A stretch of DNA of 60,234 nucleotides, taken from contig JAIPBM010000029.1 in NCBI GenBank assembly GCA_021739695.1, forward strand, positions 1 through 60,234, written 5' to 3'. Both the position numbers and the translations under genes were made by a program. The notes beneath the pieces are model-generated. The model was not told where the DNA came from. It was given only the letters and a program-made list of their open reading frames with translations, and made no database searches. The DNA comes from Flavobacteriales bacterium. GTDB taxonomy: Bacteria > Bacteroidota > Bacteroidia > UBA10329. Within the stretch, counting starts at the first letter, position 1, and the number at the start of each line of letters is the position of its first letter. This document shows positions 23,854-60,234 of this stretch, piece by piece.

Positions 23854-24312
23854 TCAAATATCCCAATCCCAAAAGCGCCACCAGTCATTCTTGTCGTTCA
23901 CCACAACTTTTATCTGTGGGTTTCGTGTCTTTAACAATTGAATGAATTCCTTTTCCTGTGCAGGAGAAATGAGCACGCTTTTAGATTTTGATTTAACAAG
24001 CAAGCGTTTGAGCGATGATGCTGGAGACGAAAGCGGATTGTAACTACGCTTCACTGATGTGATCTCGCTCAGTGGAATCTTTCCATAGTTTACGGGGCCG
24101 AGTTTGATACTCAGCGTGGAATCCGATACTTCATACCGCATTCCCAACAGTAGCAGTAGCACAATTGCTAGCGAACCAGCAATGGTGGCTATAGCCGCTA
24201 CAAGTTCACCCGAACCCACATTTCCCTTTGTTAAAAACAGAATAGGCGTAAACATGACCAAGATGAATAGGAGTAGAGCCACACTTATTCTTGATCGGAA
24301 TGTTGTTGTCAC
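23854..24312 (-). CDS. Membrane protein with bacterial PH-like domain
   Basis: A 152-residue protein with two membrane helices (about 10-30 and 38-58) and a C-terminal PH-like domain (YEVSDSTLSIKLGP, KIPLSEITSVKRS, VLISPAQEKEFIQLL). This is the pattern of DUF1200/bPH proteins. The start is GTG, two bases after the stop of the upstream GH31 gene, so the two are probably co-transcribed. Function unknown. Confidence 0.75.
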   Translation of the reverse strand: MTTTFRSRISVALLLFILVMFTPILFLTKGNVGSGELVAAIATIAGSLAIVLLLLLGMRYEVSDSTLSIKLGPVNYGKIPLSEITSVKRSYNPLSSPASSLKRLLVKSKSKSVLISPAQEKEFIQLLKTRNPQIKVVVNDKNDWWRFWDWDI

Positions 24313-55233: not shown

Positions 55234-55771
55234 TGTCATGCTGACGAAGTGCCTGCCCTGAGCTTGTCGAAGGGAAGCATCTCTTTTACCATCTTGGCAA
55301 GTCAATCAAACGAGATTCCTCCCTTCGATAAAAACTCAGGGCAGGCTGCACCTCGGAATGACAGGACTACTGTCATGCTGACGAAGGAAGCATCCCCTAT
55401 CCCGTTTGTCATGCTGACGTTAGGAAGCATCCCTATTCACAAGGAGATTCCTCGTGCACTCGGAATGACAAGACTACTGTCATGCGGACGAAGGAAGGAT
55501 CTGTTTTGCAATCTTGGCAAGTCAATCAGACGAGATTCCTCGTGCCTCGGAATGACAGGACTACTGTCATGCTGACGAAGGAAGCATCCCCTATCCCGTT
55601 TGTCATGCTGACGAAGGAAGCATCCCTATTCACAAGGAGATTCCTCGCGCACTCGGAATGACAAGACCGCTGTCATGCTGACGTTAGGAAGCATCTCTAT
55701 TCACAAGGAGATTCCTCGCGCACTCGGAATGACAAAACCAATGTCATGCTGACGAAGTGCCTCGGAAAGAC
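55234..55771. repeat. Array of composite palindromic repeats (left array)
   Basis: At least six units run from TGTCATGCTGACG to CGGAATGACA. Full unit L1 is 55234-55363 (130 bases) and contains the inner inverted arms CCTGCCCTGAGCttgTCGAAGGG and CCCTTCGAtaaaaaCTCAGGGCAGG. Others are 55371-55470, 55478-55557, 55565-55663, 55671-55734, and a minimal 31-base unit near 55742-55771. The 90 bases before the array (55143-55233) hold an AGAACCC/GGGTTCT inverted pair but no ORF. No gene lies in this stretch. Confidence 0.9.
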
Positions 55772-55776
55772 AAGAG

Positions 55777-56085
55777 CTAATCCTCCTTCACACTATCGTT
55801 CAAAAACTCCCAGTTGGGATTGAAACCATTGATCAGTTCATTCTTTTTCTGTCGTCTCCAACCTTTTATCTCTTTCTCTCTGGCAATAGCGTCAGCAACA
55901 TATTGAAACCGTTCCCAATACAACAGATAATGACACTTGTATTTGCCAGTAAACCGAATGGTTGATGGTTGTTTGTGTTCAGACAACCGCCTTTCCAGAT
56001 TATTGGTCACGCCAGTGTAAAGCACCGTCTTGGTCTTATTCGTTATGATGTAAACGAAGTAGTTATGCAGTCCTAGAGGTTTCAT
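55777..56085 (-). CDS. GIY-YIG endonuclease-like protein
   Basis: A 102-residue protein with FVYIITNKTKTVLYTGVTNN (GIY-YIG variant FVYII...LYTGV, about 10-29). It then has LERRLSEHKQ with the catalytic Arg, the acidic EKEIKGWRRQKKNELI region and NPNWEFLND. It matches the small UPF0213/YhbQ-like group. It is embedded between units of the palindromic repeat array, ending 5 bases after the array's last unit. Confidence 0.9.
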   Translation of the reverse strand: MKPLGLHNYFVYIITNKTKTVLYTGVTNNLERRLSEHKQPSTIRFTGKYKCHYLLYWERFQYVADAIAREKEIKGWRRQKKNELINGFNPNWEFLNDSVKED

Positions 56086-56122
56086 CTTCCAGATCAGGCA
56101 AGCTAAATTAACTGATCTCGTT

Positions 56123-56176
56123 TGTCATGCTGACGAAGTGCCTGCCCTGAGCATGTCGAAGGGAAGCATCTCTTTT
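56123..56176. repeat. Half unit of the palindromic repeat
   Basis: TGTCATGCTGACGAAGTG to AAGCATCTC with the inner arm CCTGCCCTGAGCATGTCGAAGGG but no matching right half. It lies 38 bases upstream of the GIY-YIG start. The remaining bases to 56314 hold no ORF that I can support. Confidence 0.85.
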
Positions 56177-56314: not shown

Positions 56315-58723
56315 TCAAAATTCCATACCGAAGGCAATCACGTCATCTACCTGAAAATTGTCTCCCTTCCATTCTAGAAAATGTCTTTCAAGCAATTCTT
56401 TGTGCTCAATGAATGGCTTAGACTGTATCTTTAAGAGGAAGGCTTTTTTTCTTCTACGAAGCATTTTCTTTTTCTCATCGCCACCAAACTGATCGACAAA
56501 ACCGTCTGAGAAAGTGTAGATCCTATCCCCCGCTCTGAACTCAACGCAGTGCTCTTCGGCATCCTGCGTTTGAATACGTATTGCTCCACCAACCATGGCC
56601 TTAAGCCCTTTATACACCTTCAATTCCCCAGACGAAAAGTAGTAGACGTCTCTTCCAATATTCACAAAATGAACATACTTTTCCGTTTGGTCTATCCGAA
56701 ACAGTGACAGTTCCATCCCATCGTTCAGCATTGATGTTTCTTTGGTCTGGCCAAGAAAATCAGTAATGGCAGCATCCGTTTCCATTACCACCTGTTTAGG
56801 ATTTCGTTTCTTCTTGCGCCCCAAAGTGTACTGTTTCAACAGCTGCACCGCCAAAATGGTCATCAAGGCACCAGGTACACCATGCCCTGTGCAATCTCCA
56901 ATGGCAATATAGCTACAGTCGTATGCATTATCTTGATGGGTCCAATGGAAATCTCCGCTTAGTATATCGCGCGGTATATCGATCACAAAGAAATCTTTGA
57001 CACCGATATCTGCTGGGTTTACGTGTTGAATGAAGGCATTCTGAATATGCTTGGCATAACTGATACTATCTGTGATATCCTTGTTCCGGTCTACCAGTAA
57101 TGTGTTGGCCCTTGATAGTTCTTCTGTTCGCTCATCAACCTTCATCTCCAATGTCCTAAACAGTTCATCCCGTTCTATCTCGGCCATTTTACGTGGGGTA
57201 ATATCGGTCATGATGGCAATAAGCTGTTCCATTCTTCCATCTCCACCCATTACTGGAGTAGCATGGACGCTAGCCCAATAGCCATCTCCGTTCTTCTTAC
57301 GAAGAAACATCTCCTCGTGCACGGCCTTACCGTTTTTCAACGCCTTCATGATAGCTTTTATCCGAGCAAATGCATCTTCATTCGGACTGCTGAATATCTG
57401 ATAAGGCAAACGACCTTCAATATCTTTTAAAGTGTAACCCGTTTGGTTCAGAAAGCCTTCATTCACCCATGTGGGATAAAAAGACCCGTCTCCAATAAAA
57501 ACGCCATTGTTGATCTTGCTTGCCACCATGGAAAGCTTACGTATTTCTTCTTCCTGTACCTTCCGTTTGGTAATATCTCGCATCATCACCATGGTACCCG
57601 TGCTACCATCCCAATTCAGTGGCCCAAGGTTGATATCAACAGGGAATTCACTGCCATCCTTCCGTTTGGCAATCAAATTATTCATTACACCCATGGCGCG
57701 CCTTTCAGGCTTTTGTGCATATCCATTCCGATGATGTTGGTGTACATGTGCATATCGGTCGGGAATGAGTATTTCTACTGGTTTGCCCAGCACTTGCTCA
57801 TACTTGTACCCAAAATAATCTTCTGCCTGTTGGCTAAAGAAGACGATCTTTCCCTCATCATTGGCAATGATCACTGCGTCTGGGGCCTGATTGAGGGCAT
57901 CTTTGAAACGCTTGCGTGTTTGCCGTACCTCCTGTTCCCTTATAACCCTTTCGGTTATATCCGAATGAATGACAACCGCCCCTCCCTCATTGCCGTGGAA
58001 AGGCGTTACTTTCATAATAAACCAGCGTATAGCATCTGGTGAATGGCAGGGATACTCGTATACGAAATAGCTGCGTTTACCACTTAGGATATCATTAACT
58101 CCCTCAAATGGAGCCACTGCCGATGAATCTCCTCCCGTAATGAAATTCTTACAAACCTCTAGGTAATTGACCCCATGATAATCGGCTTCTGTAGTTCCTC
58201 CACCATTCGCTGCCGAAAACTTTATCCAGTTCTCGTTCACATAGATCAGCTCTCCTCTTTTATTGATCACTCCGATATTGGAGGGTATGACCGATAATAT
58301 ACCGGAGCCGATTGCTGCTTTTGTTCGCAAAACTTCGGAGGCTTCTTTTTCGGCCAAGGCCATTTCCCGCTCTTCTTTGGCCTGTTTCAGTTCTACCTGT
58401 AGTTTACAAAGACTCCCTTTCTGTGCTTCAACAATTGCTAGCTGAGAAAGTAATTCCATCACAGCCCCATTGTGCATTGAATCCGAAATCACTACGCATG
58501 GAACATCCTTTGCTATGGAACGTATCTGTTGCAATGTTTCAACTGCAGATATACATGGTAAATTGCTATTCAATAAGATAGCAGCATATTTACCCGGAAC
58601 GAAGCGCTTTCTGAACGCCTCGTATCCCTTGGCATGATCGATCTCTATCGTAACATGATTCGGTATTTGCAGGCTTTTCAGTTCTTCATCTTGAATGTCT
58701 CTTCCTATATAGATTATACGCAT
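56315..58723 (-). CDS. PAS-domain sensor with SpoIIE-type PP2C phosphatase
   Basis: 802 residues from ATG 58723 (a TTG six bases earlier is possible). Residues 1-115 resemble a receiver but have Asn (LLNSNLP) at the phosphoacceptor position. Three PAS/PAC segments follow: about 150-265, 270-395 (PDAVIIANDEGKIVFFSQQA) and 400-520 (GVFIGDGSFYPTWVNEGFLN). A coiled-coil (EMKVDERTEELSRANTLL) leads to the SpoIIE domain. Its metal-binding Asp residues are present in SGDFHW, AIGDCTGHGVPGA and FSDGFVDQFGGDE. It should dephosphorylate a protein partner in response to a ligand or redox signal. Partner and signal unknown. Confidence 0.88.
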   Translation of the reverse strand: MRIIYIGRDIQDEELKSLQIPNHVTIEIDHAKGYEAFRKRFVPGKYAAILLNSNLPCISAVETLQQIRSIAKDVPCVVISDSMHNGAVMELLSQLAIVEAQKGSLCKLQVELKQAKEEREMALAEKEASEVLRTKAAIGSGILSVIPSNIGVINKRGELIYVNENWIKFSAANGGGTTEADYHGVNYLEVCKNFITGGDSSAVAPFEGVNDILSGKRSYFVYEYPCHSPDAIRWFIMKVTPFHGNEGGAVVIHSDITERVIREQEVRQTRKRFKDALNQAPDAVIIANDEGKIVFFSQQAEDYFGYKYEQVLGKPVEILIPDRYAHVHQHHRNGYAQKPERRAMGVMNNLIAKRKDGSEFPVDINLGPLNWDGSTGTMVMMRDITKRKVQEEEIRKLSMVASKINNGVFIGDGSFYPTWVNEGFLNQTGYTLKDIEGRLPYQIFSSPNEDAFARIKAIMKALKNGKAVHEEMFLRKKNGDGYWASVHATPVMGGDGRMEQLIAIMTDITPRKMAEIERDELFRTLEMKVDERTEELSRANTLLVDRNKDITDSISYAKHIQNAFIQHVNPADIGVKDFFVIDIPRDILSGDFHWTHQDNAYDCSYIAIGDCTGHGVPGALMTILAVQLLKQYTLGRKKKRNPKQVVMETDAAITDFLGQTKETSMLNDGMELSLFRIDQTEKYVHFVNIGRDVYYFSSGELKVYKGLKAMVGGAIRIQTQDAEEHCVEFRAGDRIYTFSDGFVDQFGGDEKKKMLRRRKKAFLLKIQSKPFIEHKELLERHFLEWKGDNFQVDDVIAFGMEF

Positions 58724-58734
58724 CCGCAATGTTC

Positions 58735-59824: not shown

Positions 59825-60233
59825 CATCATGCTGAGGAAGAAATCATCTTTTATCCCGTTTGTCATGCTGACGAAGTGCCTGCCCTGAGCTTGTCGAAGG
59901 AAGGATCTGTTTTGCAATCTTGGTAGGTCAATCAGACGAGATTCCTCCCTTCGATAAAAACTCAGGGCAGGCTGTGCCTCGGAATGACAAGACCGCTGTC
60001 ATGCTGACGTTAGGAAGCATCCCCTATCCCGTTTGTCATGCTGACGAAGGAAGCATCCCTATTCACAAGGAGATTCCTCGCGCACTCGGAATGACAAGAC
60101 CTCTGTCATGCTGACGAAGTGCCTGCCCTGAGCATGTCGAAGAGAAGCATCTCGTTTACCATCTTGGTAGGTCAATCAGACGAGATTCCTTCCGTCGATA
60201 AAAACTCAGGGCATGCTGCACCTCGGAATGACA
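59825..60233. repeat. Array of composite palindromic repeats (right array, runs off the window)
   Basis: A degenerate unit near 59825 is followed by the full unit 59861-59989 (129 bases, inner CCTGCCCTGAGCttgTCGAAGG arms), 59997-60096, and the full unit 60104-60233 at the end of the window. Sequence and unit types match the left array. The stretch from 59709 has no gene I can support. Confidence 0.9.
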
Positions 60234-60234
60234 G

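Follow-up and report, generated by a model that had tools for sequence, protein, structure and literature searches.

Small GIY-YIG nuclease genes of one clade lie among C/TGTC-tagged palindromic repeats and may form minimal mobile units with them

Introduction

In GIY-YIG nucleases, catalytic roles are assigned to a conserved set of residues (Y, YxG, R, E, and N). Two groups of small GIY-YIG proteins are relevant here. The first is Ssn: an article by Chenal et al. in Nat Commun (2025) is said to describe Ssn proteins as GIY-YIG site-specific single-stranded nucleases and as a modulator of transformation, and reportedly also covers the palindromic NTS repeats of Neisseria together with similar palindromes that go with other Ssn members. 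The second is UPF0213 (YhbQ-like).

The closest described repeats are the CGTC-tagged REPs. According to Di Nocera et al. (2013, PMC3733652), these carry the tag CGTC, often changed to TGTC, their stems almost always start with AT, and they mostly form head-to-head dimers, which in some families are heterodimers. They are found in alpha-Proteobacteria, Bacteroidetes, and other groups, and include dRS3 of Neisseria and RPE-4/6 of Rickettsia as well as repeats of Wolbachia (PMC3733652). According to the same authors, CGTC REPs 'apparently lack a dedicated transposase', and the enzyme behind repeats that range over several phyla, from Bacteroidetes to Neisseria, Rickettsia, and Wolbachia, is left open.

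The subject of the present analysis is a stretch of 60,234 nucleotides ("the window") from a Flavobacteriales bacterium (Bacteroidota, UBA10329; assembly GCA_021739695.1, contig JAIPBM010000029.1). A first-pass annotation had noticed in it a small GIY-YIG gene embedded in composite palindromic repeats, and had proposed that such a nuclease could play a role comparable to that of the RAYT transposases, which mobilise REP sequences. Like RAYT/REP systems (REPtrons, REPINs), the family described here has, at 30/55 two-sided loci, a nuclease gene between inverted tagged hairpins, with gene-less dimers elsewhere; unlike them, in which the RAYT is an HUH Y1 enzyme and the tag is GTAG, it has a GIY-YIG protein and a C/TGTC tag, with no Y1 match in the source genome.

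The repeat array and the GIY-YIG gene of the window

Hairpin dimers of the type TGTCAT...ATGACA form a 0.9-kb array around the window gene, at 55234-55772 and 56123-56172. A full dimer pairs two different hairpins: TGTCAT-GCT on the left and, in the opposite orientation, TGTCAT-TCC on the right. The features are as follows.

55234..55363, no strand: full hairpin dimer (left TGTCAT-GCT, right inverted TGTCAT-TCC), widened by a nested palindrome; fold z = -5.97
55371..55396, plus strand: single GCT hairpin unit
55407..55470, no strand: GCT/TCC hairpin dimer; fold z = -1.49
55478..55557, no strand: dimer whose left unit is diverged (TGTCATGCGGACG) and whose right unit is of the TCC type
55565..55590, plus strand: single GCT hairpin unit
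55601..55663, no strand: GCT/TCC hairpin dimer
55671..55734, no strand: GCT/TCC hairpin dimer; fold z = -2.12
55742..55772, no strand: truncated dimer, ending 5 bases before the ORF end
55777..56085, minus strand: small GIY-YIG nuclease gene, 102 aa; PF01541 match, with conserved Y23, G25, R33, E70, and N89 present
56123..56172, plus strand: half unit (GCT, loop widened), separated from the gene's start codon by 38 bases
59861..60234, no strand: second array of the same family, reaching the contig end, with no GIY-YIG gene in view

The first-pass annotation had described TGTCAT...ATGACA palindromes with a second palindrome nested inside full units, one unit 5 bases from the end of the gene, and a half unit 38 bases upstream of it, and this anatomy was borne out: the truncated dimer ends at 55772 and the lower end of the ORF is at 55777, the half unit starts at 56123, and a second palindrome (CCTGCCCTGAG.../...CTCAGGGCAGG) is present in the longest full dimer, 55234-55363, where it widens the hairpins. 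A strand of this dimer folds far better than shuffled versions of itself (z = -5.97), and two short dimers fold only modestly better than theirs (z = -1.49 and -2.12). The units nearest to the gene, at 55742 and 56123, have the same orientation and do not form an inverted pair. Exact copies of TGTCATGCTGACG number 17 in the genome (4.24 Mb, 53 contigs), 12 of them on the window contig; with up to one mismatch, 23 copies are found, against one for a reversed-pattern control. Because units sit at contig ends, the assembly probably breaks in repeats, and these copy numbers are probably underestimates. Other repeat units are also near contig ends (C3, C22, and C25).

The gene itself, called in the first reading from the letters, was confirmed by PF01541, with which the protein scores 60.8 bits (cut-off 22.6). 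In an alignment of 90 sequences that includes the window protein, Y23, G25, R33, and N89 are kept in 90/90, E70 in 89/90, and Y12 in 86/90. Its AlphaFold2 model has a pLDDT of 90.4, and in a Foldseek search with this model the UPF0213 structure 1zg2 was the sole match at E < 0.001 (E 4.9e-4, TM 0.51); Slx1 and the UvrC N-domain matched more weakly (E 0.015 and above), and these matches give no pointer to hairpin binding. UPF0213 is the same as the window protein in fold and size, and 1zg2 is also the nearest solved structure in a profile search (E 4.5e-8), at modest scores. A PADLOC search with the gene gave no match, and a search of a phage collection gave one weak match only. The array adjoins an 804-aa ORF (56315-58729, minus strand), the translation of which we take to comprise PAS sensor domains and a C-terminal phosphatase domain.

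A second gene-repeat pair in the same genome

Besides a short match at the end of contig C34, the genome contains three small stand-alone GIY-YIG genes. One of the three, on contig C52, lies inside an array of another palindrome family, GTCATTGCGAGG...CGAAGCAATC (TGC units). Exact copies of GTCATTGCGAGG number 51 in the genome, 12 on C52 and none on the window contig (C29), and the reversed-pattern control gave 0. The window gene goes with GCT/TCC units, and the C52 gene with TGC units. The third gene (C38) scores best with a separate type of its own, and its 2.6-kb locus holds none of six repeat patterns tried. Nine GTCATTGCGAGG sites lie in less than 500 bp at one end of the same contig (G000:C38:35-503), the C38 gene being at the far end.

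The repeats might be moved by another enzyme, an HUH RAYT or an IS transposase, with the GIY-YIG gene as a passenger; mobilisation of GTAG REPs by RAYTs has been hypothesised (PMC3733652). In the source genome, however, the assembly of which is 98.5% complete, there are 0 matches to PF01797 (Y1_Tnp, the sole transposase family searched); a resident RAYT is therefore unlikely. Moreover, Di Nocera et al. (2013, PMC3733652) saw no tie of CGTC repeats to transposase genes, and the cognacy of enzyme and repeat described below also stands against a passenger, an explanation that we regard as very improbable. Membership of the window locus in the RAYT/REP systems, which have an HUH Y1 gene beside the repeats, was likewise rejected on the 0 PF01797 matches in the genome.

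Proximity of genes and repeats across genomes

GTDB species genomes were scanned with a six-protein alignment (A1), and the best 80 of at least 574 relatives were taken with flanks of up to 10 kb; units in these 80 loci were detected as TCAT-xyz-GA...rc(xyz)-AT. Among these best 80 of at least 574, a unit lies within 250 bp of 68/80 GIY-YIG genes and within 1.5 kb of 69/80. Unit density in the same 80 loci falls from 5.21 per kb at up to 250 bp from the gene to 0.044 per kb at 4-10 kb, and two units lie inside GIY-YIG genes themselves. The enrichment that the first-pass annotation had named as a check on its proposal is thus present: other ORFs in the same loci (called mechanically, at least 100 aa long and more than 2 kb from the gene) have a unit within 250 bp in only 39 of 745 cases (odds ratio 103), the 80 loci being partly dependent, as L128, L130, and L139 represent one ancestral site. 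For 12 of these 80 genes, no unit was detected at up to 250 bp; a generic search for palindromes at the 12 found arms in six (L063, L071, L083, L090, L123, and L129) and a GTCAT tag in three.

For a comparison of clades, PF01541 matches were collected in 39 genomes, the source genome included, and 67 small and 40 long genes were scored, some short or broken matches and five long loci (L055-L059) being left out. Long genes (UvrC, DEDD-type, and a few others) were named by ORF length, and the small ones were typed by best score against a few query proteins, the label UPF0213-like of group B resting on one member (L033), which matches 1zg2 at E 8.8e-16. Units at up to 500 bp accompany 10/14 genes of clade A, 3/19 UPF0213-like genes, 4/34 other small genes, and 3/40 long genes of the UvrC/DEDD type. 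When the window and C52 genes, which prompted the test, are removed, clade A retains 8/12 (p 8e-5 versus the long genes, 0.007 versus the UPF0213-like genes, and 6e-4 versus the other small genes). One of the "other" small hits, which the script left untyped (L192), consists of a gene and three units that are those of L286, typed A. L286 (G009 C5:13112-14010) holds two GIY-YIG matches that do not differ in score or identity and whose starts are 599 bp apart; units lie between the two as well as around them, a layout that looks like a tandem duplication of gene plus repeats.

In a set of paralogues scored with a looser detector, a unit lies within 500 bp of 27/39 genes (26/36 of those typed A), and 12/39 have none within that distance. 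This set shares three genomes with the 39-genome set (G000, G009, and G011), and without them the count is 20/32. Units near genes are sparse in some genomes (1/5 in G122, 0/2 in G105).

The gene and the repeats might simply gather in the same gene-poor, repeat-rich gaps, a chance explanation that would fit the facts that repeats are mostly outside genes and that tandem arrays inflate unit counts. It is refuted by the control ORFs of the best 80 of at least 574 loci, by the other GIY-YIG clades and UvrC, which in the same genomes are mostly without a link, and by the cognacy of enzyme and repeat (see below); what probability it retains is negligible. The contrast between 68/80 genes and 39/745 ORFs means that the gene-repeat link is real and not a product of chance, and the link is specific to one GIY-YIG clade.

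Anatomy of the repeat unit

Among the best 80 of at least 574 loci, 321/565 TCATxyzGA anchors near the genes have a matching arm, as against a mean of 55 (maximum 74) in 200 shuffles of xyz and 34/468 for anchors far from the genes. GA precedes the closing arm in 265/321 near units versus 13/34 far ones. In the flanks of 306 units, TCAT is preceded by G in 97% and this in turn by T in 84%; the closing AT is followed by C in 93% and then T in 77% of units of these best 80 of at least 574 loci, the paired AT at the stem start being built into the detector and hence not independent evidence. Short GA...GA units, with repeat copies within a locus counted once, have a three-base loop in 80/120 cases, and this loop is GNA in 60/80. 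Tandem GA mismatches and GNA loops produce unusually stable DNA mini-hairpins, and such a design suggests that one DNA strand may be read as a hairpin. The GA pair is often missing from units outside Bacteroidota.

The putative cognate site would consist of a C/TGTC tag, a stem starting with AT and three variable bases (xyz), a closing stem, and then C, to which many sites in Bacteroidota would add a GA/GA mismatch pair and a GNA loop. Compared with the CGTC REPs of PMC3733652, the window-family units share the C/TGTC tag (G before TCAT and T before that, at the frequencies above) and the head-to-head dimers, and they fit except for the tail, the AT at the stem start being set by the detector. 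They differ in that many units of Bacteroidota have GA/GA mismatches, GNA loops, and a CT end instead of CCA, and in that a GIY-YIG gene is here a candidate enzyme, whereas that paper reports no dedicated transposase.

Matching of enzyme and repeat types

Among 18 genomes of the class with at least two matches, 16 were used (G013, G080, and one B-type match of G011 were left out). In same-genome pairs of paralogues with units, 13/14 share no stem (12/13 without the source genome). A stem is shared by 179/241 unit pairs within a locus, which local duplication can make uniform, and by 4/278 unit pairs between loci of one genome. Loci of different genomes are also usually disjoint in stem (265/337); these data therefore mean that the paralogues lack a genome-wide background of shared stems, and do not imply that they avoid each other.

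For comparison with the protein tree, each locus was given one label, its commonest stem, which hides mixed arrays such as the GCT/TCC array of the window. Nine genes with TGC stems require one change on the tree (support 84), the shuffled mean being 8.6 with 0/500 shuffles as low; their sources are Bacteroidota, a MAG assigned to Chloroflexota, and a MAG that has no phylum label, and three of them represent one Chryseobacterium site. The TTC stem also clusters (10 changes versus 18.7 shuffled). For TCT, TCC, CCC, CCT, and GCT, agreement with the tree is weak or absent, and all stems together require 41 changes versus 53.5 shuffled. The nearest protein neighbour has the same commonest stem in 31/79 cases versus 9.6 expected (maximum 20 in 1000 shuffles), to which organism kinship contributes. 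On these sequence patterns, the pairing looks specific, different paralogues being found among different hairpin families, and it is very probable that each enzyme goes with a cognate hairpin.

Evidence for mobility

In the best 80 of at least 574 loci, the nearest units are inverted (plus before the gene, minus after it) at 30/55 two-sided loci (p 2.7e-6 versus one quarter). In one genome (G063), the gene and a single hairpin to either side of it make up a TGTCAT-to-ATGACA segment of 370 bp (L259:1463-1832). A relative (G125) has the same gap without this 370-bp DNA and thus represents an empty site, in which comparison the ends of the insertion are the tags. A second relative (G128) holds a gene-less dimer of another family in the gap, three more (G096, G022, and G126) hold other DNA there, and the sixth (G127) matches one flank only. 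This empty-site comparison, with hairpin-gene-hairpin as a discrete 370-bp insertion, is the newer part of the present work. At empty sites the flanks are only about 75-85% identical, and since they are too diverged no target-site duplication is definable. The gap of the G063 unit, filled by other DNA in relatives (L314, L315, and L316), is an insertion hot spot: the filler in G096 is CACAGATT...AATCTGTG DNA, and in G022 and G126 it is a longer, coding-looking stretch.

In Azospirillum lipoferum, the gene and dimers lie between sufB and sufC, and both are missing from this gap in all four congeners that were compared by alignment (A. ramasamyi, A. oryzae, A. sp. B510, and A. thermophilum); the flanks are diverged at the junction, and no clean empty-site boundary was found. 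Shinella sp. PSBB067 carries a different GIY-YIG gene and a different hairpin pair in the sufB-sufC gap, so that this one gap has taken up distinct hairpin-gene pairs in Azospirillum and Shinella (L225, L248). Other small genes are present there in a Paracoccus and a Sphingomonas record. There was also no clean boundary in relatives of the window, where matches outside the gene and repeats are mostly weak (the two longest are 66-67%), in rhizobial plasmids, or in Planktothrix, and for a further genome (G061) two relatives match one flank only. In three syntenic rhizobial stretches of 49 kb, the sole indel of at least 25 bp at units is an extra tandem dimer, which recombination explains and which therefore counts against recent movement; a few further differences in unit detection occur at 23965 in the L51/94 stretch and, near the end of the R. 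tumorigenes stretch, at 75 and 181.

A homing-like process would also spread such loci: the enzyme would cleave repeat sites in double-stranded or cruciform DNA, and repair of the break would copy the gene and repeats elsewhere. GIY-YIG domains are known in homing endonucleases, PHROG homing-endonuclease profiles match the window protein weakly (E 0.0019 and 0.0049), and repair between repeats would be expected to give arrays, as it would in the Rhizobium plasmids. However, the stretch of the G125 empty-site junction that was inspected has no repeat unit, so that a cognate site was probably not already present where the insertion took place, and we consider homing improbable.

The RAYT-like role proposed in the first-pass annotation therefore stands in part: the inverted flanking pairs (among the best 80 of at least 574 loci) and the one clean empty site are consistent with it, and the window's own nearest units do not form an inverted pair. 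The tie to a single GIY-YIG clade and the matching of enzyme with repeat types go further than that annotation did. Judged from the anatomy and this empty site, mobilisation by the GIY-YIG enzyme has roughly even chances.

What is observed is proximity, clade specificity, a match between types of enzyme and types of repeat, more inverted flanking pairs than expected, and a single discrete insertion. The reading that we favour, as somewhat more probable than its opposite, is that a hairpin-specific GIY-YIG nuclease acts together with cognate palindromes and that the gene and two inverted hairpins make up a minimal mobile unit of a REP-like kind, 370 bp long in the sole empty-site case. Gene-less dimers would be miniature derivatives of this unit, like the REPs of RAYT genes. 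It is suggested that the protein binds the single-stranded hairpin, that it nicks at or near the tag while the DNA is single-stranded, at the replication fork or during DNA uptake, and that the cut at the tag starts copying or insertion of the unit. A more tentative extension, to which we give a little less than even chances, is that GIY-YIG genes of this clade encode the long-missing mobility enzyme of CGTC/TGTC REPs, each lineage moving only hairpins of its own stem. If true, hairpin-gene-hairpin (370 bp in the resolved case) would be among the smallest autonomous mobile elements, with a GIY-YIG single-strand nuclease replacing the transposase, and, if the protein moves the units, GIY-YIG transposition would be a new route for mobile bacterial DNA. 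The matching of enzyme and hairpin types within one genome permits a direct test with short oligonucleotides and one small protein.

Distribution and relation to Ssn

Restriction to Bacteroidetes, the range first supposed, proved wrong. The gene and units are also present in Pseudomonadota, on a cyanobacterial plasmid, and in MAGs assigned to Chloroflexota, Verrucomicrobiota, Thermodesulfobacteriota, Clostridia, and Calditrichota; the cases beyond Pseudomonadota, Bacteroidota, and the cyanobacterial plasmid are all MAGs, the labels of which can be wrong. A tblastn search of plasmid records gave 32 matching records, including Sinorhizobium, Rhizobium, Shinella, and Planktothrix, and among them two chromosome-sized records of N. 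gonorrhoeae filed as plasmids. Twelve of the 32 were examined, and 9/12 had units by the looser detector, most having a palindrome of their own, such as the following.

Neisseria: CGTCATTCCCGCGCAGGCGGGAATC
Sinorhizobium and Shinella: CGTCATCCTCGGGCTTGACCCGAGGATCC
Rhizobium CIAT894: CGTCATCCCAGGGCTTGACCCTGGGATCC
Azospirillum: CGTCATCCCCGCGAAGGCGGGGATCC

In most listed units of Alphaproteobacteria and Neisseria, C precedes GTCAT; it is CCTC in L227 and L231, and several alphaproteobacterial units end in CCA. Three sphingomonad loci (L224, L229, and L230) have no units by the looser detector, and two of these (L224 and L229) have inverted pairs of the CGTCGCCCC.../CGTCACCCC... type.

A tree was built from 74 proteins, comprising 34 of clade A (27 from the best 80 of at least 574), 12 from plasmid records, 16 of group B, and 12 others; the alignment is short and the inner forks are poorly resolved. 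The 46 proteins of the repeat-linked type (34 + 12), among which are those of Neisseria and the rhizobia, group together as a single clade on a long branch (SH-aLRT 100). The window protein lies within it, apart from all 16 group B rows (SH-aLRT 100), which speaks against its membership in UPF0213, to which group B is tied by one member (L033); unlike the window protein, group B stands outside the 46-row clade and is seldom near repeats (3/19).

At the N. gonorrhoeae locus (L220), the protein is 34.1% identical to that of the window and 12 units surround the gene. We take this gene to be Ssn and its repeat letters to be dRS3/NTS, and the family of the window gene is presumably the Ssn family. 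Like Ssn, the window family consists of small single-domain GIY-YIG proteins with cognate palindromic repeats, and the Neisseria homologue, in its palindrome array, belongs to the same clade as the window gene. Ssn is reported to be a nuclease and modulator of transformation; the present analysis is the source of the hairpin-gene-hairpin insertion unit and of the link to CGTC REPs. Given the reported Ssn work of 2025, the pairing of enzyme and palindrome is itself probably already known; if so, the window would be a further member, and the present analysis would add the insertion unit and the equation of these repeats with CGTC REPs.

The Neisseria relative also fits a different explanation, in which the nuclease serves the cell as a regulator of single-stranded DNA, for instance in natural transformation, and the repeats are its targets, spread passively or otherwise. 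Ssn and NTS are said to modulate transformation in Neisseria, and the pairing and cognacy of enzyme and repeat would be expected equally. Against this stand the gene of G063 in a discrete hairpin-gene-hairpin insertion, the absence of the gene from the same place in the Azospirillum congeners, and the patchiness of the family, which is matched in 50/119 genomes of the class at E 1e-12 (some UPF0213-like proteins included, e.g., L033 of G028) and in 36/119 at the stricter E 1e-18. A regulator of this kind is rather unlikely, though it deserves more weight than the other alternatives, and the mobile unit remains the reading that we prefer.

Among the titles listed in a literature search by the repeat letters, none concerned bacterial palindromic repeats, and among the papers listed, from journals that were covered in part, none tied GIY-YIG to these repeats by title or opening of the abstract, which is no proof of novelty. 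On plasmid p1 of Planktothrix (L226), the gene with its hairpins is flanked by a gene for a type IIL restriction enzyme on one side and by drmA of a DISARM system on the other.
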